The notes beneath the pieces are model-generated. The model worked only from the letters and a program-made list of their open reading frames with translations, made no database searches and was not told the origin of the DNA. Position numbers and translations under genes: made by a program. Below, piece after piece: positions 8,255 to 19,225 of a stretch of DNA of 64,000 bases (positions are counted from its first letter, which is position 1; each line of letters begins with the position of its first letter). The DNA comes from Anaerobacillus sp. CMMVII. GTDB taxonomy: Bacteria > Bacillota > Bacilli > Bacillales > Anaerobacillaceae. The DNA is taken from contig NZ_JACEHK010000006.1 of NCBI RefSeq assembly GCF_025377685.1, forward strand, positions 1 through 64,000, given 5' to 3'.

Positions 8255-8351
8255 TGGCGGGACTGTGTGGGAATCGAACCCACCGAAGACGGCACGCGCC
8301 TCCCATAAGGTTTTGAAGACCTCGGCAAACACCAGTTACACAACCAGCCCC
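8255..8351 (-). tRNA. selC: tRNA-Sec (anticodon TCA)
   Basis: Selenocysteine tRNA, charged with serine by SerRS and converted by SelA. On the minus strand the 97-nt gene runs from GGGGCTGG to an encoded CCA. It has the T arm GTGGG-TTCGATT-CCCAC, an anticodon arm with loop CTTCAAA (anticodon TCA reading UGA) and a long variable arm, all typical of Sec tRNA and unlike ordinary tRNAs of 73-77 nt. A weak promoter (CGACAA/AGTATA on the + text, 8446-8451 and 8425-8430) lies about 75 nt upstream. selB, selD and selA are all within 11 kb. Confidence 0.95.
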
Positions 8352-8649: not shown

Positions 8650-8718
8650 GAGTATGTAGCTCAGCGGTTAGAGCAAACCTTCACGGTTATTTCGCGGGTT
8701 CAAGTCCCGCCATACTCA
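8650..8718 (+). tRNA. Short tRNA-like gene with contracted anticodon arm
   Basis: Acceptor GAGTATG / CATACTC pairs perfectly, D arm GCTC-AGCGGTTA-GAGC and T arm GCGGG-TTCAAGT-CCCGC are perfect, but only 13 nt (AACCTTCACGGTT) make the anticodon arm instead of 17, so the whole gene is 69 nt. It can fold as a 4-bp stem with a TTCAC loop, or a 3-bp stem with loop CTTCACG, which would place TCA at the anticodon. The CCTTCACGG stretch resembles the Bacillus tRNA-Glu(UUC) loop CCTTTCACGG minus a T. No CCA is encoded. A TATAAT lies at 8601-8606 and a terminator follows, so it may be transcribed. Functional status open. Confidence 0.6.
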
Positions 8719-8738
8719 CTTAAAAAGTCTAAATTAAG

Positions 8739-8923: not shown

Positions 8924-9041
8924 ATACATAAAACCAAGTTTTTCTAACTTCGTGTTTGGCGATTGATAAATGAATAGCTTCTTATTGGGAAAGTTAAAGC
9001 TATAGAAATTAGCGTTGGAAGTGTTGGGTGGTGACTTGAGT

Positions 9042-10300
9042 ATGGAAAGTTTTCCGTTTTTTATAATGGTATTGTTAATTGTTTTGTTGTTTTTATCTGC
9101 GTTCTTTTCTTCGGCGGAAACGGCTTTTTCAAGTGCGAATCGGATCAGGCTCAAAAATTATGCTGATGAAAACCGCAAAGGAAGTAAGAATGCGTTAATG
9201 ATCACAGAGCAGTTTGATAAAAGCTTATCGACGATTCTTGTCGGTAATAATGTTGTGAATATTGGGGCGGCAACGATATCCGCGAAGCTTGCGACAGATC
9301 TCTTTGGCGCTGGAACTGGAATGATTATTAACACAGTTGTGATGACAACACTTGTTTTAATTTTTGGTGAGATTTTACCAAAATCGTATGCGAAAGAAAA
9401 TGCAGAGAACTTTGCGTTAAAAATATCGGGTATTTTAGCGTTTTTAATGAGAGTCCTAGCTCCAGTAACGATTATTTTTATCTCGTTAAAAAAGCCATTT
9501 CAAAAATGATTACAACGAGTGAACAAAGCCCTTCCGTTACGGAAGAAGAGTTAAAAGTGATGATCAATATCAGCGAAGAAGAAGGGATTATTGATAAAAA
9601 AGAACGTGAGCTCGTTCATAGTGCGCTAAATTTTGATGACATTGTTGTCGGCGAAATTTTAACACCAAGAATTGATATGATTGCTGTGGAAGTGAATGCT
9701 CCGCATGAAGAAATCCTGCAAATGTTTTTGCTAGAACGATATTCACGGGTGCCAGTCTATCAAGAGAATATCGATAATATTATTGGGATTTTATCAGAGC
9801 GGGAGTTCTTGGCTTGTTTAGTTCAGGGAAAAACGTTTTTGGTGAAAGACTTAGTGAGAAAACCAATGTTTGTCGTTGAGTCACTAAAGATTTCTTCGTT
9901 ACTGCCAGAATTACAAAAAAGCAAAACACATATGGCGATTGTTATTGATGAATTCGGTGGAACAGAAGGGCTTATTACGATGGAAGACATCCTAGAGGAA
10001 ATTGTCGGAGAAATTTGGGATGAGCATGATGAAAAAATCGTGATTATGAAACAAGTCGATGAAAATACGATCCAGTTTTCGGCTGATTTTTCTCTCACTG
10101 ATTTTTGTGAATTAATGAATGTTCCCGTTCCTGATAGCTCCTACCACTCGTTAGGAGGCTGGGTCGTTGAAAAATTCGAAAAAATCCCAACGATCGGCGA
10201 AGAGCTATCCTATCATCATGTGACAATCATCGTTCATGCGATGGATGGAAAACGAATACGTCAGTTAATCGTCAAGAAAAACCTACAGCTAGAAGAGTGA
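9042..10300 (+). pseudogene. CNNM/CorC-type CBS-domain membrane protein, one frameshift
   Basis: Membrane transporter or regulator of the HlyC/CorC (DUF21-CBS) family, implicated in magnesium or other divalent cation export. The first part (to 9509) holds the DUF21 membrane domain starting near SFPFFIMVLLIVLLFLSAFF and ending at a TGA; the second frame (open from before 9506) holds two CBS domains and the CorC_HlyC domain (GGWVVEKFEKIP). Joined they give about 420 residues, normal for the family. The break is at the A-run 9488-9493: one more A, or a -1 slip on A-AAA-AAG, restores the frame. An ATG at 9506 overlaps the TGA but has no ribosome site. I choose ATG 9042 over an upstream TTG because GGGTGGTGA lies 8 nt before it. 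Confidence 0.75.
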
Positions 10301-10458: not shown

Positions 10459-12396
10459 GTGCCGATAATGGGAGACCGCTTTTATACAATTGGAATGGCT
10501 GGTCATATCGATCATGGAAAAACAACGCTAACAAAAGCGTTAACAAATATTGATACCGATCGCTTAAAAGAAGAAAAAGAACGGAATATCTCGATTGAAT
10601 TAGGCTTTGCACCGCTAAAGCTTAAGAGTGACATCCAAGTATCCGTCATTGATGTCCCTGGCCATGAACGGTTTATTCGTCAAATGATTGCTGGGGTTGC
10701 TGGAATTGACTTAGTGATGCTCATTGTTAGTGCGGATGAAGGCGTCATGCCACAAACGAAAGAGCATTTAGATATTTTATCCTTATTGGGCCTTGAAAAC
10801 GGGATTATCGTCGTTACGAAAATTGATCGGGTTGACGAAGAACTATTGGAATTAGTTCAAGAAGATATCACGATGGAAGTCGAAGGGACGTTTTTAGAAG
10901 ATGCCTCGTTTGTGTTTGTTGATAGCTTATCTGGTAAAGGGATCGATCAACTAAAGGACGTCATTGAAGAAAAACTGAGTGGTGTCTCGAGCCGTGATGC
11001 CAAAGGAGCGTTTAGACTACCAATTGATCAAGTATTCACGGTTCATGGACAAGGAACGGTTGTCAGAGGAACGATTTATGAGGGCTCAATCCAAGAAGGA
11101 GATATTCTTGAGATTTTACCACAAGGATTAAAGGTACGAGCAAGGCAGTTACAAGTTCATCATGAGAAGAAGGAACGAGGCTTTGCTGGACAGCGAACCG
11201 CTATTAATCTTGGTGGAGTTTCAAAAGACGAGGTAAAACGAGGCGACGTTTTAGTTTCCACTCAGCAGTATGCAACAACCTCGACGATTGATGTCTCCTT
11301 ACAAACGTTAAAAGGGCTAGATCATCCCCTAAAGCAACGTGGTCATATCAAACTTCACCTTGGTACGGCGGAAGTTTACGGGAAAATTGTGTTTTTTGAT
11401 CGGAACGAACTTGTAGGCGACGAAGCAGAGACCATCCTTTGTCAAATACGTTTAGATGAACCGATTGTAACAAGACGAGGCGACCGCTTTATTTTACGAC
11501 GACCAACGCCAGTAGAAACCATTGGTGGTGGCTTTGTCATTGATCCAAACGGGGAAAAACATAAGTTTGGTGAAGCAACGATTCAATTGCTAGAACGGAA
11601 AAAAGAAGGAACGCCAGTCGAACGGGTGATCGATTCTTTAAAAGAAGAAAAGTTTTTATCGGTGTCTCAACTCCAAAAGCACGTCGATTTACCAGAAGAA
11701 ACAGTTCAATTAGCACTAGAAGAATTAACTGAGAAAGAAGCGATCATCAAAACGGAGCAGGGGGACGTTGTCTTAACTTCTGTTTATGAAGAGATTGTTG
11801 AGCTAATTACTGCCGATCTTGAAGAGTTCCATGAAGAATACTCGTTACGAGAAGGGAAAAGTAAGGCAGAAGTCCTGCACTCGTTAAAACAAAATTATCC
11901 GATGAAGCTCTTAGAGTTTACACTTGCGAAAAGTGAAAAAGAAGAGCGAATTAGTAAACGTGGTCAATTCATTGCCTTATCGCCATTTCAACCACATTTC
12001 CCGAAAAAATGGGCAAAGCGGATGGAGCAGGTGGTAAATGAAATCGAAACACAAGGAATGCAAGTAGAGGCTTGGGAATTTGTCGTAGGCCGTGCACAAT
12101 TACCGGTGCAGCTCCAAGAGGATTTAAAACATTACCTCGTTCGGACGAATCAAGTGATTGCCCTTGATGAAAAGCATTTTATTTCAGGCACGCAAATAAA
12201 AGCTGCAATTAAACGGTTACGAGAAAAAACAACCGATGAGTTTGAACTACAAGATGCTAAAGAAGTTCTACAGTTATCAAGAAAATATTTAGTGCCTTTT
12301 ATGGAACTATTAGATCGCCTACGATTAACCATTCGAATGGAAACAAAACGCCAGTGGCAAAAAGCGGAGTATGATAAATGGATCAATCAACAATAA
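10459..12396 (+). CDS. selB: Selenocysteine-specific elongation factor SelB
   Basis: GTPase that carries Sec-tRNA to the ribosome and binds the SECIS hairpin of selenoprotein mRNAs. 645 residues, within the family range. GTP-binding motifs: GHIDHGKTTL (residues 15-24), DVPGHE and TKID; then translation-factor beta-barrels with HGQGTVVRGT, and C-terminal winged-helix repeats that bind SECIS (about residues 380-640). Start could be GTG 10459 (AAAGG 5 nt before) or ATG 10468. The last 19 nt overlap the next gene, so the glycosyltransferase is made from the same transcript. UGA recoding genes are present nearby, supporting activity. Confidence 0.96.
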   Translation: MPIMGDRFYTIGMAGHIDHGKTTLTKALTNIDTDRLKEEKERNISIELGFAPLKLKSDIQVSVIDVPGHERFIRQMIAGVAGIDLVMLIVSADEGVMPQTKEHLDILSLLGLENGIIVVTKIDRVDEELLELVQEDITMEVEGTFLEDASFVFVDSLSGKGIDQLKDVIEEKLSGVSSRDAKGAFRLPIDQVFTVHGQGTVVRGTIYEGSIQEGDILEILPQGLKVRARQLQVHHEKKERGFAGQRTAINLGGVSKDEVKRGDVLVSTQQYATTSTIDVSLQTLKGLDHPLKQRGHIKLHLGTAEVYGKIVFFDRNELVGDEAETILCQIRLDEPIVTRRGDRFILRRPTPVETIGGGFVIDPNGEKHKFGEATIQLLERKKEGTPVERVIDSLKEEKFLSVSQLQKHVDLPEETVQLALEELTEKEAIIKTEQGDVVLTSVYEEIVELITADLEEFHEEYSLREGKSKAEVLHSLKQNYPMKLLEFTLAKSEKEERISKRGQFIALSPFQPHFPKKWAKRMEQVVNEIETQGMQVEAWEFVVGRAQLPVQLQEDLKHYLVRTNQVIALDEKHFISGTQIKAAIKRLREKTTDEFELQDAKEVLQLSRKYLVPFMELLDRLRLTIRMETKRQWQKAEYDKWINQQ

Positions 12397-13406
12397 CACT
12401 CTCATTCTTAACTCCCTATTATCATCAAGGTCGTGGCAATGCCACAACAGCTAGACGAATTGTTACAGGGCTTGAAGAAATGAAGATAGCGACGAATGTC
12501 GTTGCCTATAGCGAAGAAATATTTTCTCACGAAACTGCCAAAGAGCTTGAACATTCTTGCTTATTTCATGTGCTTCATTTTCGGAGATTTGCAGAGTGGC
12601 TAGAGGCAAGTAATTATCAAATCAAGAAACCTTATATCATCACATCTGGTGGCACAGACGTAAATATCGATATCTTTAAGCATGAGTACCAAGAGAAAAT
12701 TGGCGAGGTATTGAAAAAAGCGGCAGCAATTACCGTGTTTAGTGAGGATGCGAAACAAAAGTTAGCAGGTATCTATCCTGATCTAGTTAGCCGAATTCAC
12801 ATCATTAAGCAAAGTGTCTGGTTTCCTGAATCCATACCAGCAAGCCAATTCCTAAACGGTGATCGTATTGGTCCAAATATTTTGCTTCCTGCAGGTTTAA
12901 GAGCGGTTAAAGATGTCTTATATGTCCTGCCAGCGCTGATCGAACTAAAGAAACAGTTTCCAGGTTTAACTTTTACGATTTTAGGGGCTCCTCTCGAAAC
13001 GGGTATTGTTAACGCGGTAAAAAAGGCACAAGTAACTTATCCGTGGATCCAATATGTAGAGGAAGTGCCGCTTGAAGAAATGCAAGCCGTTTACGAGCAA
13101 AGTGATTTGGTCATTAATACCTCGCTCTCAGAAGGACAGTCATCAGCCTTACTTGAGGCGATGTACTTAGGAAAACCTGTCATTGCTAGAAAGAATGGTG
13201 GCAATCAAAGCATCATTCGTCACGGTGAAACAGGCTATTTATTCGAAACTCCTTCTAATTTTTACGAGCAAGTTCAACATTTAGTAATGAATGAGCCTTT
13301 GAAAAATTCGATTGCTCAAAATGGGCAGGCGTATGTAAAAGAAAACCATACGTTAAATGAAGAGATGACGAAGTATATTCAATTGTACAAGGAAGTTATC
13401 GGTTAG
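12378..13406 (+). CDS. GT4 glycosyltransferase, SenB-like (possible selenosugar synthase)
   Basis: 342 residues, GT-B fold. The C-terminal half has the GT4 donor site NTSLSEGQSSALLEAM and GGNQSIIRHGETGYLF. The N-terminal half carries FLTPYY...GNATTARR, then HVLHFRRFAEW and TSGGTDVNIDI; in my memory of the SenB family (TIGR04348) the matching stations are a GN..TA.RW segment, a LHARRSA segment and a TGTDLY.DI segment. SenB makes a selenosugar from selenophosphate and a UDP-sugar. The start lies inside selB (GGAG 8 nt before ATG), so coupling to selenium metabolism is direct. No SenA-type enzyme is in the window. A general GT4 role in envelope synthesis remains possible. Confidence 0.7.
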   Translation: MDQSTITLSFLTPYYHQGRGNATTARRIVTGLEEMKIATNVVAYSEEIFSHETAKELEHSCLFHVLHFRRFAEWLEASNYQIKKPYIITSGGTDVNIDIFKHEYQEKIGEVLKKAAAITVFSEDAKQKLAGIYPDLVSRIHIIKQSVWFPESIPASQFLNGDRIGPNILLPAGLRAVKDVLYVLPALIELKKQFPGLTFTILGAPLETGIVNAVKKAQVTYPWIQYVEEVPLEEMQAVYEQSDLVINTSLSEGQSSALLEAMYLGKPVIARKNGGNQSIIRHGETGYLFETPSNFYEQVQHLVMNEPLKNSIAQNGQAYVKENHTLNEEMTKYIQLYKEVIG

Positions 13407-13430: not shown

Positions 13431-13463
13431 AAAATGGCTTAGAAAATTCTCTAAGCCATTTTG
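13431..13463 (+). terminator. Terminator of the selB operon
   Basis: AAAATGGCTTAG / CTAAGCCATTTT stem, T-rich at the 3' side; ends the selB-glycosyltransferase unit. Confidence 0.8.
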
Positions 13464-13501: not shown

Positions 13502-14515
13502 CTACTTCTTCATGATTTGCTTTCGTTCTGCCATTTGAGGTACTTCTTCCATCCAACCATTTTTAATCATTATTTTCCCACCTTTATGGGCATATTCAAA
13601 AATATCCTTCATAAAGACAGTCATTTTTACAGGTAAATCATTTCGTAAGCTAAAAGCAGTACCTAGTGAGCTACTCCCCACAGAAAAACTACAAAAAAGA
13701 CTTGTGCAATACATCATGAGTTTATCAGAAAACGGAGCTATTGTTGACCTGGTTGCATTACCACCGGATGGTACAGGTGATGGTAAATCGCTTTCAAGTA
13801 ATGTTTCACTTAATTCCTTTATAATACCTTTAGCTAGCTCTGCCCCCTCATTAAAGTAGCGTTTAACTTCGCTTTCGGTTGCACATTGGGCAAAACCTGT
13901 AATCATTTGCATCCCAGTTGTATTTGAATCAATGGCATGGTGAAGATGAGCTACTTCTACCGTATTTAACGTTCGTTTTCCACTAAATGGATTGATGGCA
14001 AGTCCACTTAGGTAAGATGTATCTTTAACAAACTCAACTGATTGGGGCATTGGAACATACGGTGGTCGTGCGAGCATCCCTTTTTCAAGTAAATACTGTG
14101 TGCATTGATTATAGTATTTTTGAGTCATAGCAGTAAGGTCTTTAAAAAGCATGACTACATCTTCTCGGTATGACATCGTTATATTTAGAGAATGCAGTCC
14201 CATACTTATTTCTTTTAACAGGCGTACGAACATGATGTCAAAACCGTTATCATATAACTTTGGGACCTCTTTATTGACATCTTGAGTAGTAGTAAAACCG
14301 ACAGGGATTGTTGCACCTTCATTTTTGAAGATCTCTATGATTTTATTTACAAATAAATCAACTTCATTATATAAATTTGTCATAAGATCCTTGGCTTTTT
14401 CGTCGTCGGCTTTCTCAATAAAATATTCTAACATGCGTAGTATCATTGTTTTTTCTTGATATGTAAGCCATAAAGTTCCTAGTTCTGATGATGTAATTGC
14501 AGGTTTTTCTGGCAT
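13502..14515 (-). CDS. DUF3231 family protein
   Basis: 337 residues without signal peptide or membrane segment. It is made of two similar helical halves (about 1-165 and 175-337), each beginning with a short S/T-rich stretch followed by four helices, as in DUF3231 proteins common in spore-forming Bacillaceae and thought to be ferritin-like. Biochemical role unknown. Start ATG follows GGAGGTATCACTT. It lies in the middle of the selenium locus, divergently placed relative to selB; whether it belongs functionally is unclear. Confidence 0.8.
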   Translation of the reverse strand: MPEKPAITSSELGTLWLTYQEKTMILRMLEYFIEKADDEKAKDLMTNLYNEVDLFVNKIIEIFKNEGATIPVGFTTTQDVNKEVPKLYDNGFDIMFVRLLKEISMGLHSLNITMSYREDVVMLFKDLTAMTQKYYNQCTQYLLEKGMLARPPYVPMPQSVEFVKDTSYLSGLAINPFSGKRTLNTVEVAHLHHAIDSNTTGMQMITGFAQCATESEVKRYFNEGAELAKGIIKELSETLLESDLPSPVPSGGNATRSTIAPFSDKLMMYCTSLFCSFSVGSSSLGTAFSLRNDLPVKMTVFMKDIFEYAHKGGKIMIKNGWMEEVPQMAERKQIMKK

Positions 14516-14662: not shown

Positions 14663-15529
14663 TTAGTCCTCTAAATTACTTAAAGCGACTAATGAAACGA
14701 TCGCTGGGTGAATCTTTTTTGAATGTAAGTATGATAGGAAGAATTTGCGTTCATAGGGAAGTGTTTTGATGACTTTAATTCGATTTTGCTGCATCGCTTG
14801 TGTTGCAGCGATGCTTGAGACGACTGAATAGCCAAGGTCAGCTTCCACCATGCTAATGACGGCTTCGGTGGTTTTTACTTTGGCGATACATCGTAGATCC
14901 TGCGTTGAAATCCCGAAACTATTCAGCGTTTTTTCAACGCCTTGCCACGTTCCAGACCTCTCGCTTCGAAAAATAAATGGTAACCCTTTGATTAGTGATA
15001 AATCGCTAATTTCTTCACTATCTTTTGGTCCAATTAAAATGAAATGATCTTTTTTGACGACATGGCTGATGATGTCACTACCTGCCGGCTCACTACCTAC
15101 AAAGCCAACATCAAGTGAGCCATCCTTTAATAGTACAGGAATATCACCTGACTCATGAATTGATAACTGGATATCAACTCCCGGATGTACATTCAAAAAC
15201 TTGCGTAATAGATGAGGGACGATATAAGTGCCAGGTACCGAGCTTGCGCCTATCCGAATTACACCAGTAAGTTGCCCTTGTAGGCGCCGGCATTCCTCAA
15301 CAAGCACATCCCAATCGTAAAGGAATTTCTTACCTTTTTGGTAGACCACTTTTCCTGCTTCCGTAGGCTCTACAGTTTCTCTATGTAATAAATTGATCCC
15401 AAGCTCAGCCTCAAGAGTTTTAATTTGTTTACTTACAGCAGGCTGACTTATTTTTAAAAGGTTAGCAACAACGGAAAAACTTTTATGGTCTAGGACCATC
15501 ATAAATGTTTTAATTCTTTTTAAATTCAT
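14663..15529 (-). CDS. LysR-family regulator, selenium-metabolism associated
   Basis: 288 residues: winged helix-turn-helix at the N terminus (SFSVVANLLKISQPAVSKQI), then a periplasmic-binding-like effector domain (IRIGASSVPGTYIVPHLLRKF) similar to CysB/CysR-type regulators. A LysR subfamily is known to occur beside sel genes and is annotated as selenium-metabolism associated; the length, motifs and position next to selD fit it. The effector is not known. It is read in the same direction as selD, which lies upstream, but a separate promoter-like region with a palindrome sits between them. Confidence 0.85.
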   Translation of the reverse strand: MNLKRIKTFMMVLDHKSFSVVANLLKISQPAVSKQIKTLEAELGINLLHRETVEPTEAGKVVYQKGKKFLYDWDVLVEECRRLQGQLTGVIRIGASSVPGTYIVPHLLRKFLNVHPGVDIQLSIHESGDIPVLLKDGSLDVGFVGSEPAGSDIISHVVKKDHFILIGPKDSEEISDLSLIKGLPFIFRSERSGTWQGVEKTLNSFGISTQDLRCIAKVKTTEAVISMVEADLGYSVVSSIAATQAMQQNRIKVIKTLPYERKFFLSYLHSKKIHPAIVSLVALSNLED

Positions 15530-15624: not shown

Positions 15625-16677
15625 TTATCGACTAACGTATAAAGATTTTTCTTGTTTGGCTTCTACTTCACCGATGATCTTAGCGCTAGCAATTCCTGCT
15701 TGGTGCAGAGCATCTACATAACGTCCTGCTTCTTCTTTTGGTAAAGAGACAAGCAGACCACCAGATGTAATCGCGTCGCAAAGGATCCATTGCTCATACT
15801 CTTTGAGCGAAGCAGCATACTCGACATCATTCGCTAACCAGCGGTGATTTGCTTTTGAGCCGCCAGGAACAACTCCTGCTTCTGCTAAGGCTTCTGTTCC
15901 TTCAAGAACAGGAACATCCTCGAATTTCACCTTGAAGGTAACGTCACTTCCCTTGGCCATTTCAAAAGCATGGCCTAATAAGCCGAAACCAGTGATGTCA
16001 GTCACCGCGTTTGGATGTAAGTCCTGCAATGCTTGGGCTGCCTTATCATTGAGCGCGGCCATCGTTTCCATTACTTTTGTTAGTTGCTCTTCTGTTAGTT
16101 TATCCGTTTTAATGGCTGTTGTTTGAATTCCTACGCCAATTGGTTTCGTCAACACGAGAGCGTCACCAGGCTTTGCACCAACATTTTTAAAGACTCTGTC
16201 AGGGTGGATCACTCCAGTAACAGATAAGCCGAATTTCGGTTCTTGGTCATCGATGGAGTGCCCTCCGATAACCACAGCTCCTGATTCGTTCACTTTGTCA
16301 GCAGCACCGCATAGAATTTGCGCTAAAACGTCTGGGCCAAGCTTTTTAATCGGATACCCAACAATGTTTAAAACCGTCTTGGGAATGCCTCCCATCGCAT
16401 AGACATCACTTAAAGAATTTGCCGCGGCAATTTGTCCAAACATATATGGATCATCCACAATAGGTGTGAAGAAGTCGACGGTTTGTATAATCGCTAAGTC
16501 GTCTGTTAATCGATAGACACCAGCATCATCTGATGTTTCATGCCCAACAAGGACATTTGGATCGTAAGTACGTTCAGGTAATTGGCACAAAACTTGTGCT
16601 AGGTCCTCAGGACCAATTTTGCATCCTCAACCACCTTTACCTGTCAATGTTGTTAATTTAATTTTGTTATGTTCCAT
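15625..16677 (-). CDS. selD: Selenide, water dikinase SelD, selenocysteine-containing
   Basis: Makes selenophosphate from selenide and ATP for SelA and any other selenium branch. The sequence reads ATG (16677-16675), 15 codons, an in-frame TGA at 16629-16627, and then continues open to the TAA; read with Sec this is 350 residues, the normal SelD length. The motif becomes GKGGUGCK with Sec at residue 17 and Lys at 20, matching the catalytic Cys17/Lys20 of E. coli SelD. GGAGGT lies 10 nt before ATG. A reading that starts after the TGA would lack the catalytic loop. The bSECIS hairpin at 16602-16614 supports recoding. Downstream LVLTKPIGVG and GGHSIDD are typical family segments. Confidence 0.95.
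16602..16629 (-). promoter_or_regulatory. bSECIS and Sec UGA codon of selD
   Basis: On the coding strand the UGA (16629-16627) is followed after 12 nt by GGTCC-TGA-GGACC, a perfect 5-bp stem with a 3-nt loop containing G at its second position. The loop lies 17-20 nt after the UGA, inside the range expected for bacterial SECIS. A second hairpin GCACAA/TTGTGC follows directly. Confidence 0.8.
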
Positions 16678-16776: not shown

Positions 16777-17013
16777 TTGAGCTATGTAGTTGAAGTACAA
16801 TTTTGTATGCAGTGAAACTTTGCTCCGAAAGCTGCGAGTTTCGCAGAAGAAATGCTTACCCACTTCCGACATGAAATCACAAAGCTAGAGCTTGTTCCTA
16901 GCTCTGGTGGCGCTTTTGAAGTCATTATTAATGGCAAAAAAATATATTCTAAGCTTGAAACCGGATCATTCCCGGAGGCAGAAGAGATTTTTGAAAAAAT
17001 GGAAGATCTGTAA
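16777..17013 (+). CDS. SelW-like (Rdx family) selenoprotein, CMQU redox motif
   Basis: Small thioredoxin-fold redox protein of the SelT/SelW/SelH family. TTG start at 16777 with AGGAGGG 7 nt before it; codons 10-13 read Cys-Met-Gln-UGA, and the frame is open after the TGA (16813-16815) to TAA at 17011, giving 78 residues with Sec at position 13. The CxxU near the N terminus and the segments FEVIINGKKIYSKLETGSFP are typical of SelW. Ordinary translation would stop after 12 residues. It is divergent from selD, sharing about 100 nt of upstream region, so the two selenoprotein genes may be co-regulated. Physiological partner unknown. Confidence 0.93.
16813..16846 (+). promoter_or_regulatory. bSECIS and Sec UGA codon of the SelW-like gene
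   Basis: UGA at 16813-16815; perfect 6-bp stem CTGCGA-GTT-TCGCAG at 16832-16846 places a loop beginning with G 22 nt after the UGA, as expected for a bacterial SECIS. A competing lower stem GAAACT/AGTTTC also exists. Confidence 0.8.
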
Positions 17014-17800: not shown

Positions 17801-19225
17801 ATGAAACAATTTTTACGAGAATTACCAGCAATTCATGTGTTGAAATCTGATTCGCGCTTTAACGAGTCCTGTGAAAGCTTTAACATAAATGATCATGAAA
17901 TGACGGACCTTGTCCAACAAGAAATTGAACAACTCCGTAAAGATATCCTTGGTGAGGCCTTAGGAGACATTGCGTCACCAACGAAGGAAGGTTTTAAGGA
18001 TGTCGTTTTTCAGAGACTTTTAAAAAAATTAGAAAAGTACCAACGATTTAATTTACGTAGAGTGATTAATGGGACAGGAACTATTTTACATACAAACCTA
18101 GGCAGGGCGAAATTAAGTAATGTCGCCATTGACCAGGTTATCGAAACAGCTCGAAACTATTCAAACTTAGAATATCAAATTGAAGCCGGTAAACGTGGGT
18201 CAAGGCATGATATTATTAATGATGTCATTCAACGAATTACTGGTGCAGAAGCAGCCATGGTTGTAAATAACAATGCCGCTGCCGTTTATTTAATTTTACG
18301 TGCACTAGCAAAAGAAAAAGAAGTGATTGTCTCAAGAGGGCAGTTAGTTGAAATCGGTGGCTCGTTTCGAGTTTCTTCAATTATGGAGGAAAGCGGAGCC
18401 AAGCTAGTCGAAGTAGGGACAACGAACAAGACGCACTTGTATGATTACGAAAATGCGATCAATGAAGAAACGGCAATGATCTTAAAAGTGCATACAAGCA
18501 ATTTTAAAACAGTCGGATTTACAGCAAGTGTTGAGACAGAACAGCTAGTGGAGTTATCCAATCAGCATGAGGGCGTTATTTTTTACGAGGATTTAGGAAG
18601 TGGTGCATTGTATGATTTCACCCACTATGGAATTGGCGATGAGCCTGTAGTTTCTAAAGTATTAAAGATGGGCGTTGATCTTGTTTCATTTAGTGGAGAT
18701 AAGCTCTTAGGTGGTCCACAAGCCGGAATTATTGCTGGGAAGAAAGAACTCATTGAAAAGCTGAAGAAGCACCAGTTAGCCCGAGTCCTGCGTGTCGATA
18801 AGATGACATTGGCAGCGTTAGAAGGTACTTTAAAGTCCTATGAAAATGAAACGGCGTTGAAGGAAATTCCGACGGTCAGAGATATTATAGCTTCTAAGGA
18901 GGACATCGGCACTAAAGCAGTGGAATTTATTGAAAATGTTGAGAGCCAATGTACAAGCTATACCTGTACGATGATCGATGAATTCTCGCAAATTGGTGGT
19001 GGAACGATGCCAATAGAGCAAATAGCGACCAAAGCCGTGACGCTCGTTTCAAATAATTATTCGGTACAGCAAATGGCAGAAAAATTACGATTAAACATCC
19101 CTGCCATAGTAACTAGAACGAAGGCGGATCAGGTTCTTCTTGATTTTCGTACCATTACAACCGAAGAAATCCCAATTATTGTTGAAGCGTTGGTGAAGAT
19201 TGAAAATACGGAAAGACAGGCCTAA
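17801..19225 (+). CDS. selA: L-seryl-tRNA(Sec) selenium transferase SelA
   Basis: PLP enzyme that replaces the serine hydroxyl on tRNA-Sec with selenium from selenophosphate. 474 residues, usual length. N-terminal tRNA-binding domain (about 1-70), NGTGTILHTNLGRAKLS, and the PLP-binding lysine in SFSGDKLLGGPQAG at about residue 301. ATG has GGGGAG upstream. It is monocistronic here, about 8 kb from its tRNA and 5 kb from selB, so the pathway is encoded as several units in one locus. Intact, no unusual features. Confidence 0.96.
   Translation: MKQFLRELPAIHVLKSDSRFNESCESFNINDHEMTDLVQQEIEQLRKDILGEALGDIASPTKEGFKDVVFQRLLKKLEKYQRFNLRRVINGTGTILHTNLGRAKLSNVAIDQVIETARNYSNLEYQIEAGKRGSRHDIINDVIQRITGAEAAMVVNNNAAAVYLILRALAKEKEVIVSRGQLVEIGGSFRVSSIMEESGAKLVEVGTTNKTHLYDYENAINEETAMILKVHTSNFKTVGFTASVETEQLVELSNQHEGVIFYEDLGSGALYDFTHYGIGDEPVVSKVLKMGVDLVSFSGDKLLGGPQAGIIAGKKELIEKLKKHQLARVLRVDKMTLAALEGTLKSYENETALKEIPTVRDIIASKEDIGTKAVEFIENVESQCTSYTCTMIDEFSQIGGGTMPIEQIATKAVTLVSNNYSVQQMAEKLRLNIPAIVTRTKADQVLLDFRTITTEEIPIIVEALVKIENTERQA

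Follow-up and report, generated by a model that had tools for sequence, protein, structure and literature searches.

Does a glycosyltransferase gene that begins inside selB encode an enzyme that joins selenium to a sugar, and does such an enzyme act alone? The question is raised by a 64,000-nucleotide stretch of the genome of Anaerobacillus sp. CMMVII (contig NZ_JACEHK010000006.1, positions 1 to 64,000; hereafter the window, meaning the whole stretch that was analysed), for which an earlier reading of the letters alone (the sequence-only reading) had proposed a SenB-like glycosyltransferase, translationally coupled to selB and serving a stand-alone branch for a selenosugar or another seleno-metabolite. 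The features on which the argument draws are the following.

8255-8351, minus strand: tRNA-Sec (tRNA scan).
10459-12396, plus strand: selB, selenocysteine-specific elongation factor (TIGR00475, 349 bits; cut-off 242).
12366-12369, plus strand: GGAG, a possible ribosome-binding site inside selB, found by eye, 8 nt before the ATG of the glycosyltransferase gene.
12378-12396, plus strand: overlap of selB with the glycosyltransferase gene, 19 nt.
12378-13406, plus strand: SenB-like GT4 glycosyltransferase, 342 aa, ATG start.
13431-13462, after the glycosyltransferase gene: inverted repeat with two 16-nt arms, 94% complementary, a possible terminator between convergent genes.
14663-15529, minus strand: selenium-metabolism-associated LysR regulator (NF040786, 297 bits; cut-off 250).
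15625-16677, minus strand: selD, the selenophosphate source, with an in-frame UGA at codon 17 (TIGR00476, 372 bits; cut-off 125).
17801-19225, plus strand: selA (TIGR00474, 556 bits; cut-off 268).

The start codon lies inside selB, as the sequence-only reading had it, the open reading frame occupies exactly the plus-strand interval listed, and all three motifs of the N-terminal series that it had named are found in the translation (RGNATTARR at residues 19-27, LHFRRFAE at 66-73, and GGTDVNIDI at 91-99). The overlap would couple translation of the two genes, such that the glycosyltransferase would be made together with the selenocysteine (Sec) machinery. No terminator was called after the gene by the terminator scan, despite the inverted repeat. 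A DUF3231 gene (13502-14515, minus strand) lies between the glycosyltransferase and LysR genes, and at loci L055, L056, L057, and L075 the LysR gene directly follows the glycosyltransferase gene. Upstream of selB, a CorC-like gene (9015-10300, plus strand) is present as two reading frames of 164 and 264 aa with a 4-nt overlap, and in the mapped relatives of the same genus it is one frame of about 419-451 aa; the split reflects either an interruption of the gene or a mistake in the sequence. Near tRNA-Sec, ARAGORN reports a tRNA-like gene (8650-8719, plus strand) having a two-base anticodon without assignment. Between selD and selA, a short TTG-start frame (16777-17013, plus strand) with a CMQU motif and an in-frame UGA belongs to the SelT/SelW/SelH (Rdx) family (TIGR02174, 71 bits against a cut-off of 34) and is a likely selenoprotein.

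The curated families give the first part of the answer. Among the NCBIfam models, the highest score, 242.5 bits over residues 9-341 against a cut-off of 400, is that of NF038229 ("GPMC system family 4 glycosyltransferase"), followed by the SenB model TIGR04348, at 74 bits against 300; since both scores are below the cut-offs, the enzyme is a member of neither family. The sequence-only reading had looked to TIGR04348 for confirmation, and in this respect it was disappointed, the score being far under the cut-off and lower than that of NF038229. Membership of the BshA family is likewise ruled out by a score of 60 bits for TIGR03999 (cut-off 273.7) and by a separate, full-scoring BshA elsewhere in the host genome (contig C10:359838-360950, 570 bits). 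The protein is a GT-B/GT4-type enzyme outside the curated SenB, NF038229, and BshA families.

The closest described enzyme is nevertheless SenB. A structure model was built with AlphaFold2 on a 40-row alignment (mean pLDDT 94.8), and in a Foldseek search of the PDB the ten top hits were all SenB chains (E 1.4e-19 for the best, with TMq 0.80 and TMt 0.85), followed by TreT (E 8.1e-18) and BshA (E 1.2e-17); the overlay on SenB, which the sequence-only reading had put forward as a check, thereby places the predicted fold closest to SenB among solved structures. BshA chains reach a TMq of up to 0.82, as high as that of SenB, and for this reason the fold alone cannot settle the acceptor.

According to the available text of PMC10891094 and, for related work, PMC10702425, active-site residues of SenB serve in binding of the UDP-sugar or of selenophosphate, or in breaking the bond between Se and P. 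The glycosyltransferase family profile aligns with solved SenB over positions 1-282 and with BshA chains only from 51-82 on. In a joint alignment that included SenB, 62 Bacillota glycosyltransferases (the window enzyme among them), and two BshA/GT4 rows, the counterparts (window enzyme first, SenB second) are N21 and N20, T24 and T23, H67 and H58, R70 and R61, G91 and T83, T93 and T85, D94 and D86, R175 and R155, K178 and K158, E252 and E231, S256 and H235, and E260 and E239. Across the 62 Bacillota rows there is no variation at N21, T24, T93, D94, R175, K178, E252, and E260; 54 rows retain H67 and 46 retain R70, and the site of SenB T83 holds Gly in 33 rows and Thr in 29. The selenophosphate pocket (N20, H58, R61, T83, T85, R155) is thus present in the window enzyme in all but T83, and the SenB motif EGGAHV is replaced by EGQSSA at residues 252-257.

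The main rival explanation enters at this point: the glycosyltransferase and a partner deacetylase, described below, may make a glucosaminide without selenium, on another acceptor and analogously to BshA/BshB or MshA/MshB, which Sec-decoding cells need, for example, in selenium handling or redox. Many of the pocket residues are general GT4 features (T85, D86, R155, K158, E231, and E239 are partly common to the two BshA/GT4 rows compared), and T83 is lost in the subclade of the window enzyme, both of which suit that explanation. However, the equivalents of N20, T23, and H58, which in SenB contact selenophosphate or sugar according to the available text of PMC10891094, are kept in the window enzyme and not in those two rows.

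The phylogeny sets the Bacillota enzymes apart. From 83 rows, some of them very long, the wrongly framed L159 and L163 were left out, together with L003, L004, L171, and L157, and the remaining 77 were placed in a tree by a quick method with SH-aLRT support only, BshA and one other GT4 row serving as the outgroup. The 62 Bacillota glycosyltransferases form one clade (SH-aLRT 99), which splits, row by row, into the 29 Thr and 33 Gly rows at the T83 site, with the window enzyme among the 33. The rows of SenB, Desulfuromonadia, Rokubacteria, and Methylomirabilota fall outside this clade, the exact place of SenB not being fixed by the tree. Accordingly, the likeness to SenB claimed by the sequence-only reading stood in the fold and in most active-site residues, but not in the TIGR04348 score, at T83, in the EGGAHV motif, or in the phylogeny, where the enzymes have a clade of their own. 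A true SenB feeding selenoneine synthesis is barely credible here: SenB is the second-best curated model and the closest solved fold, but the score is below the TIGR04348 cut-off, the clade is separate, and the EgtB-X signature TIGR04373 has no match in the whole genome, the last being weak evidence as the model was also silent in all 14 control genomes. No SenA-type protein was found among the seven window proteins scanned, which are part of the window's reading frames.

The tie to selenium use is strong. The sample comprised 299 genomes from the host's order, and a carrier was defined by an NF038229 match of at least 200 bits (the next match having 123 bits); by this measure, 69 genomes in 20 families carry the glycosyltransferase, with none over the NF038229 cut-off. 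Over the whole sample, selB is over its cut-off in 136 genomes and selD in 166, the 136 all being among the 166. Of the 69 carriers, all have selD and 68 have selB, a tie to selenium-using genomes that supports the sequence-only reading; in the one carrier without selB, G203, the assembly is broken into about 480 contigs. The association with selB gives a Fisher p of 1.3e-27, with kinship not corrected. Among the 166 genomes with selD, the glycosyltransferase is found in 68/136 with selB versus 1/30 without it (p 6.5e-7), and the enzyme therefore tracks Sec decoding rather than selenophosphate by itself. From the best 80 named loci described below, 20 that are diverged or unusual were picked, and selD is over its cut-off in all 20 of their genomes. 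In Desulfuromonadia, the gene is present in 36/58 genomes, of which 35 have selD (G345 being the one without), and with selD in 56/58 of the genomes, this sample is uninformative on the link. A tblastn search with the glycosyltransferase against plasmids gave 79 records, 6 of them covering at least 80%; the best match, from Streptomyces, has 28% identity, and no selenium gene is listed around it.

These counts bear on a further alternative, namely that the protein is an ordinary GT4 enzyme of envelope or exopolysaccharide synthesis, placed next to selB through chance or shared regulation. Its Pfam matches are to general glycosyltransferase group 1 families only, and some carriers have the gene away from selenium genes, as this alternative would have it. 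Against it stand selB in 68/69 carriers versus 136/299 genomes overall, the single glycosyltransferase among the 30 genomes with selD and without selB, and a deacetylase that tracks the glycosyltransferase even when unlinked; the alternative is accordingly considered highly improbable.

Gene order points the same way. The glycosyltransferase gene lies on the same strand and directly 3' of selB in 39/69 carriers, with 11-69 nt between the selB and glycosyltransferase matches, and the two reading frames overlap in many mapped loci. The overlap with selB is thus more than chance, and a chance neighbour of selB is rejected in view of this adjacency and the selB co-occurrence statistics. The neighbourhood survey that the sequence-only reading had proposed therefore found adjacency or overlap conserved in relatives, and the results were not those that it had named as speaking against itself, namely matches confined to ordinary GT4 enzymes and a selB overlap lacking from related genomes.

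For a wider view, 41 of the 69 carriers were mapped, chosen as 21 selB-adjacent (the window included) and 20 non-adjacent; within 7 kb of the glycosyltransferase gene, 33 have selA, selB, or selD, 26 have phnD, 13 have the deacetylase, and 5 have none of these. A set of named loci was taken as the best 80 of at least 372 confirmed, overlapping the 299 genomes, and the glycosyltransferase frame was called in 78; selB is directly upstream in 28 of these, and within 7 kb 61 have a sel gene, 55 have phnD, 37 have the deacetylase, and 10 have none of them. A recurrent operon has the order glycosyltransferase-selD-phnD-phnE-phnC-deacetylase. In the 15 carriers in which selD directly follows the glycosyltransferase gene, the operon copy is the single selD match in 14 and one of two in G195; the idea that the operon selD is an extra copy was accordingly dropped. 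At L128, L132, L145, and L146, a nucleotide-sugar-epimerase-like gene stands between selD and phnD, as if supplying the donor sugar; the L145 product was scanned as GalE-like (Epimerase family), and the other three are 51-58% identical to it. At six loci of selenium-using genomes (L047, L050, L051, L052, L116, and L124), a flavin-reductase-like gene follows the glycosyltransferase gene in place of the deacetylase. Outside Bacilli, a Thermincola MAG (L114, 9989-11698) has the glycosyltransferase-deacetylase pair and carries selD at another place in its genome. A glycosyltransferase of the window enzyme's own subclade lies 10 nt before the deacetylase in Mesobacillus harenae (L087).

The partner deacetylase is a distinct, short NodB/PdaA-type protein of about 195-219 aa, with no signal peptide by eye, in which the positions D-D-G-P, H-x3-H, R-P-P-x-G, D-W-E, and H-E are invariant in 21 rows. 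With a profile drawn solely from copies that neighbour a glycosyltransferase gene, and at a threshold of E 1e-45, it was found in 59/299 genomes, all of them carriers, and in 0/230 non-carriers; 10/69 carriers have no match at this threshold. Random dealing within the 14 mixed families (126 genomes) gave p about 1e-16 for this outcome, genomes of the same family still being related. The deacetylase gene is within 10 kb of the glycosyltransferase gene in 21 of the 59, and no copy is within that distance in 38, the host genome included, where it is on contig C8 (257576-258178, 286 bits, 205 aa). The host also has a PhnDEC set on contig C2, with 54-71% identity to the copies in glycosyltransferase loci. 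Against TIGR04553, a model for putative selenate-binding proteins with a cut-off of 250 bits, its PhnD reaches 167.5 bits and the L036 PhnD-like protein 177.5 bits, and with both below the cut-off, selenate is only a putative cargo. As the deacetylase and PhnDEC are on other contigs, the partner of the window enzyme lies elsewhere in the genome, and the stand-alone branch of the sequence-only reading is probably wrong; the recurrent partners are the NodB-type deacetylase, unlinked here, and the PhnDEC transporter.

The pairing returns the argument to the selenium-free glucosaminide, since a glycosyltransferase with a deacetylase mirrors BshA/BshB. Set against this are selD in the glycosyltransferase operon of many carriers and the BshA that the host genome already has; taken with the pocket residues, this rival is judged unlikely, although it is the main one. 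The preferred reading, with a probability of roughly 55%, is that the window enzyme is a Se-glycosyltransferase resembling SenB, in a clade of its own, which together with the deacetylase would make a selenosugar for Sec-decoding Bacillota. This reading is based on the sequence, the likeness of fold, the conservation of residues, the order of genes, and co-occurrence, the related genomes not being independent of one another. Weighing against it are the low TIGR04348 score, the loss of T83 and EGGAHV, the pocket residues partly common to BshA-type enzymes, the TMq of BshA, the ten carriers with no deacetylase match, and the loci at which neither a selenium gene nor the transporter nor the deacetylase is near. 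In the proposed pathway, selenium would enter through the PhnDEC-type transporter, and SelD would make selenophosphate, which the glycosyltransferase may share with the Sec machinery. The glycosyltransferase would then join selenophosphate and a UDP-sugar, most likely UDP-GlcNAc, to yield a 1-seleno-sugar (1-seleno-GlcNAc), from which the NodB-family deacetylase would afterwards remove the acetyl group to give seleno-glucosamine. Where a carrier lacks the deacetylase, the sugar that it uses may be one with no acetyl group. In cells that decode Sec, the product would most likely act as a carrier or buffer of selenium or as a selenol metabolite.

The selenoneine pathway is the first of its kind, and others are likely, according to its author as quoted in a commentary (PMC9814287); SenB is given as the only functionally identified Se-glycosyltransferase in the available text of PMC10891094. 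The new selenium genes of a comparative survey include YedE, LysR_Se, and DUF3343 in the portion of PMC5322559 available, in which the word "glycosyltransferase" occurs once, in a STRING table, where the Slackia glycosyltransferase Shel_25140 is linked to the YedE selenium transporter. A literature search of titles and abstract openings, with thin coverage of subscription papers, returned no selB-linked glycosyltransferase and no selenosugar deacetylase. The selB overlap, the SenB resemblance, and the co-inherited deacetylase hint that nature has a second way of incorporating selenium into a small molecule. In its fuller form, a Se-glycosyltransferase clade with a dedicated deacetylase leading to seleno-glucosamine, as a carrier or low-molecular-weight selenol and as an equivalent, for selenium, of the bacillithiol branch, such a second pathway is put forward tentatively, at somewhat less than even odds. 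If true, it would provide a second Se-glycosyltransferase clade, spread over 20 families of one order, for which a partner enzyme can be named and which is physically connected to selenocysteine decoding; moreover, the carrying or buffering of reactive selenium would become a testable question in cultured, non-pathogenic bacilli.

Several known systems can be set beside this one. The putative selenate ABC transporter (TIGR04553) and LysR_Se (NF040786; PMC5322559) are represented among the neighbours or partners of the glycosyltransferase at many loci, although the PhnD-like proteins tested do not reach the TIGR04553 cut-off. SenB (PDB 8JJN, 8JJQ, 8JJT, 8RZ3, 8FBX, 8K5U) shares the GT-B fold, most of the pocket residues, and the selenium context, but it adjoins a SenA-type gene, whereas the window enzyme adjoins selB, has a deacetylase partner, and belongs to a separate clade. 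The NF038229 model describes enzymes of Geobacter and its kin; in Geomonas, at L153 (8992-11008), an over-cut-off NF038229 enzyme lies beside a GPMC MBL-fold hydrolase (NF038231, 414 bits), with no selenium gene recognised at the locus. The hydrolase is absent beside the window enzyme, which adjoins selB and whose scanned flanks are CorC-like, selB, DUF3231, and LysR. BshA/BshB of bacillithiol synthesis and MshA/MshB of mycothiol synthesis are pairs of a GT4 enzyme and a deacetylase, and the window enzyme's family follows the same logic, with the difference that its deacetylase partner is of the NodB type.
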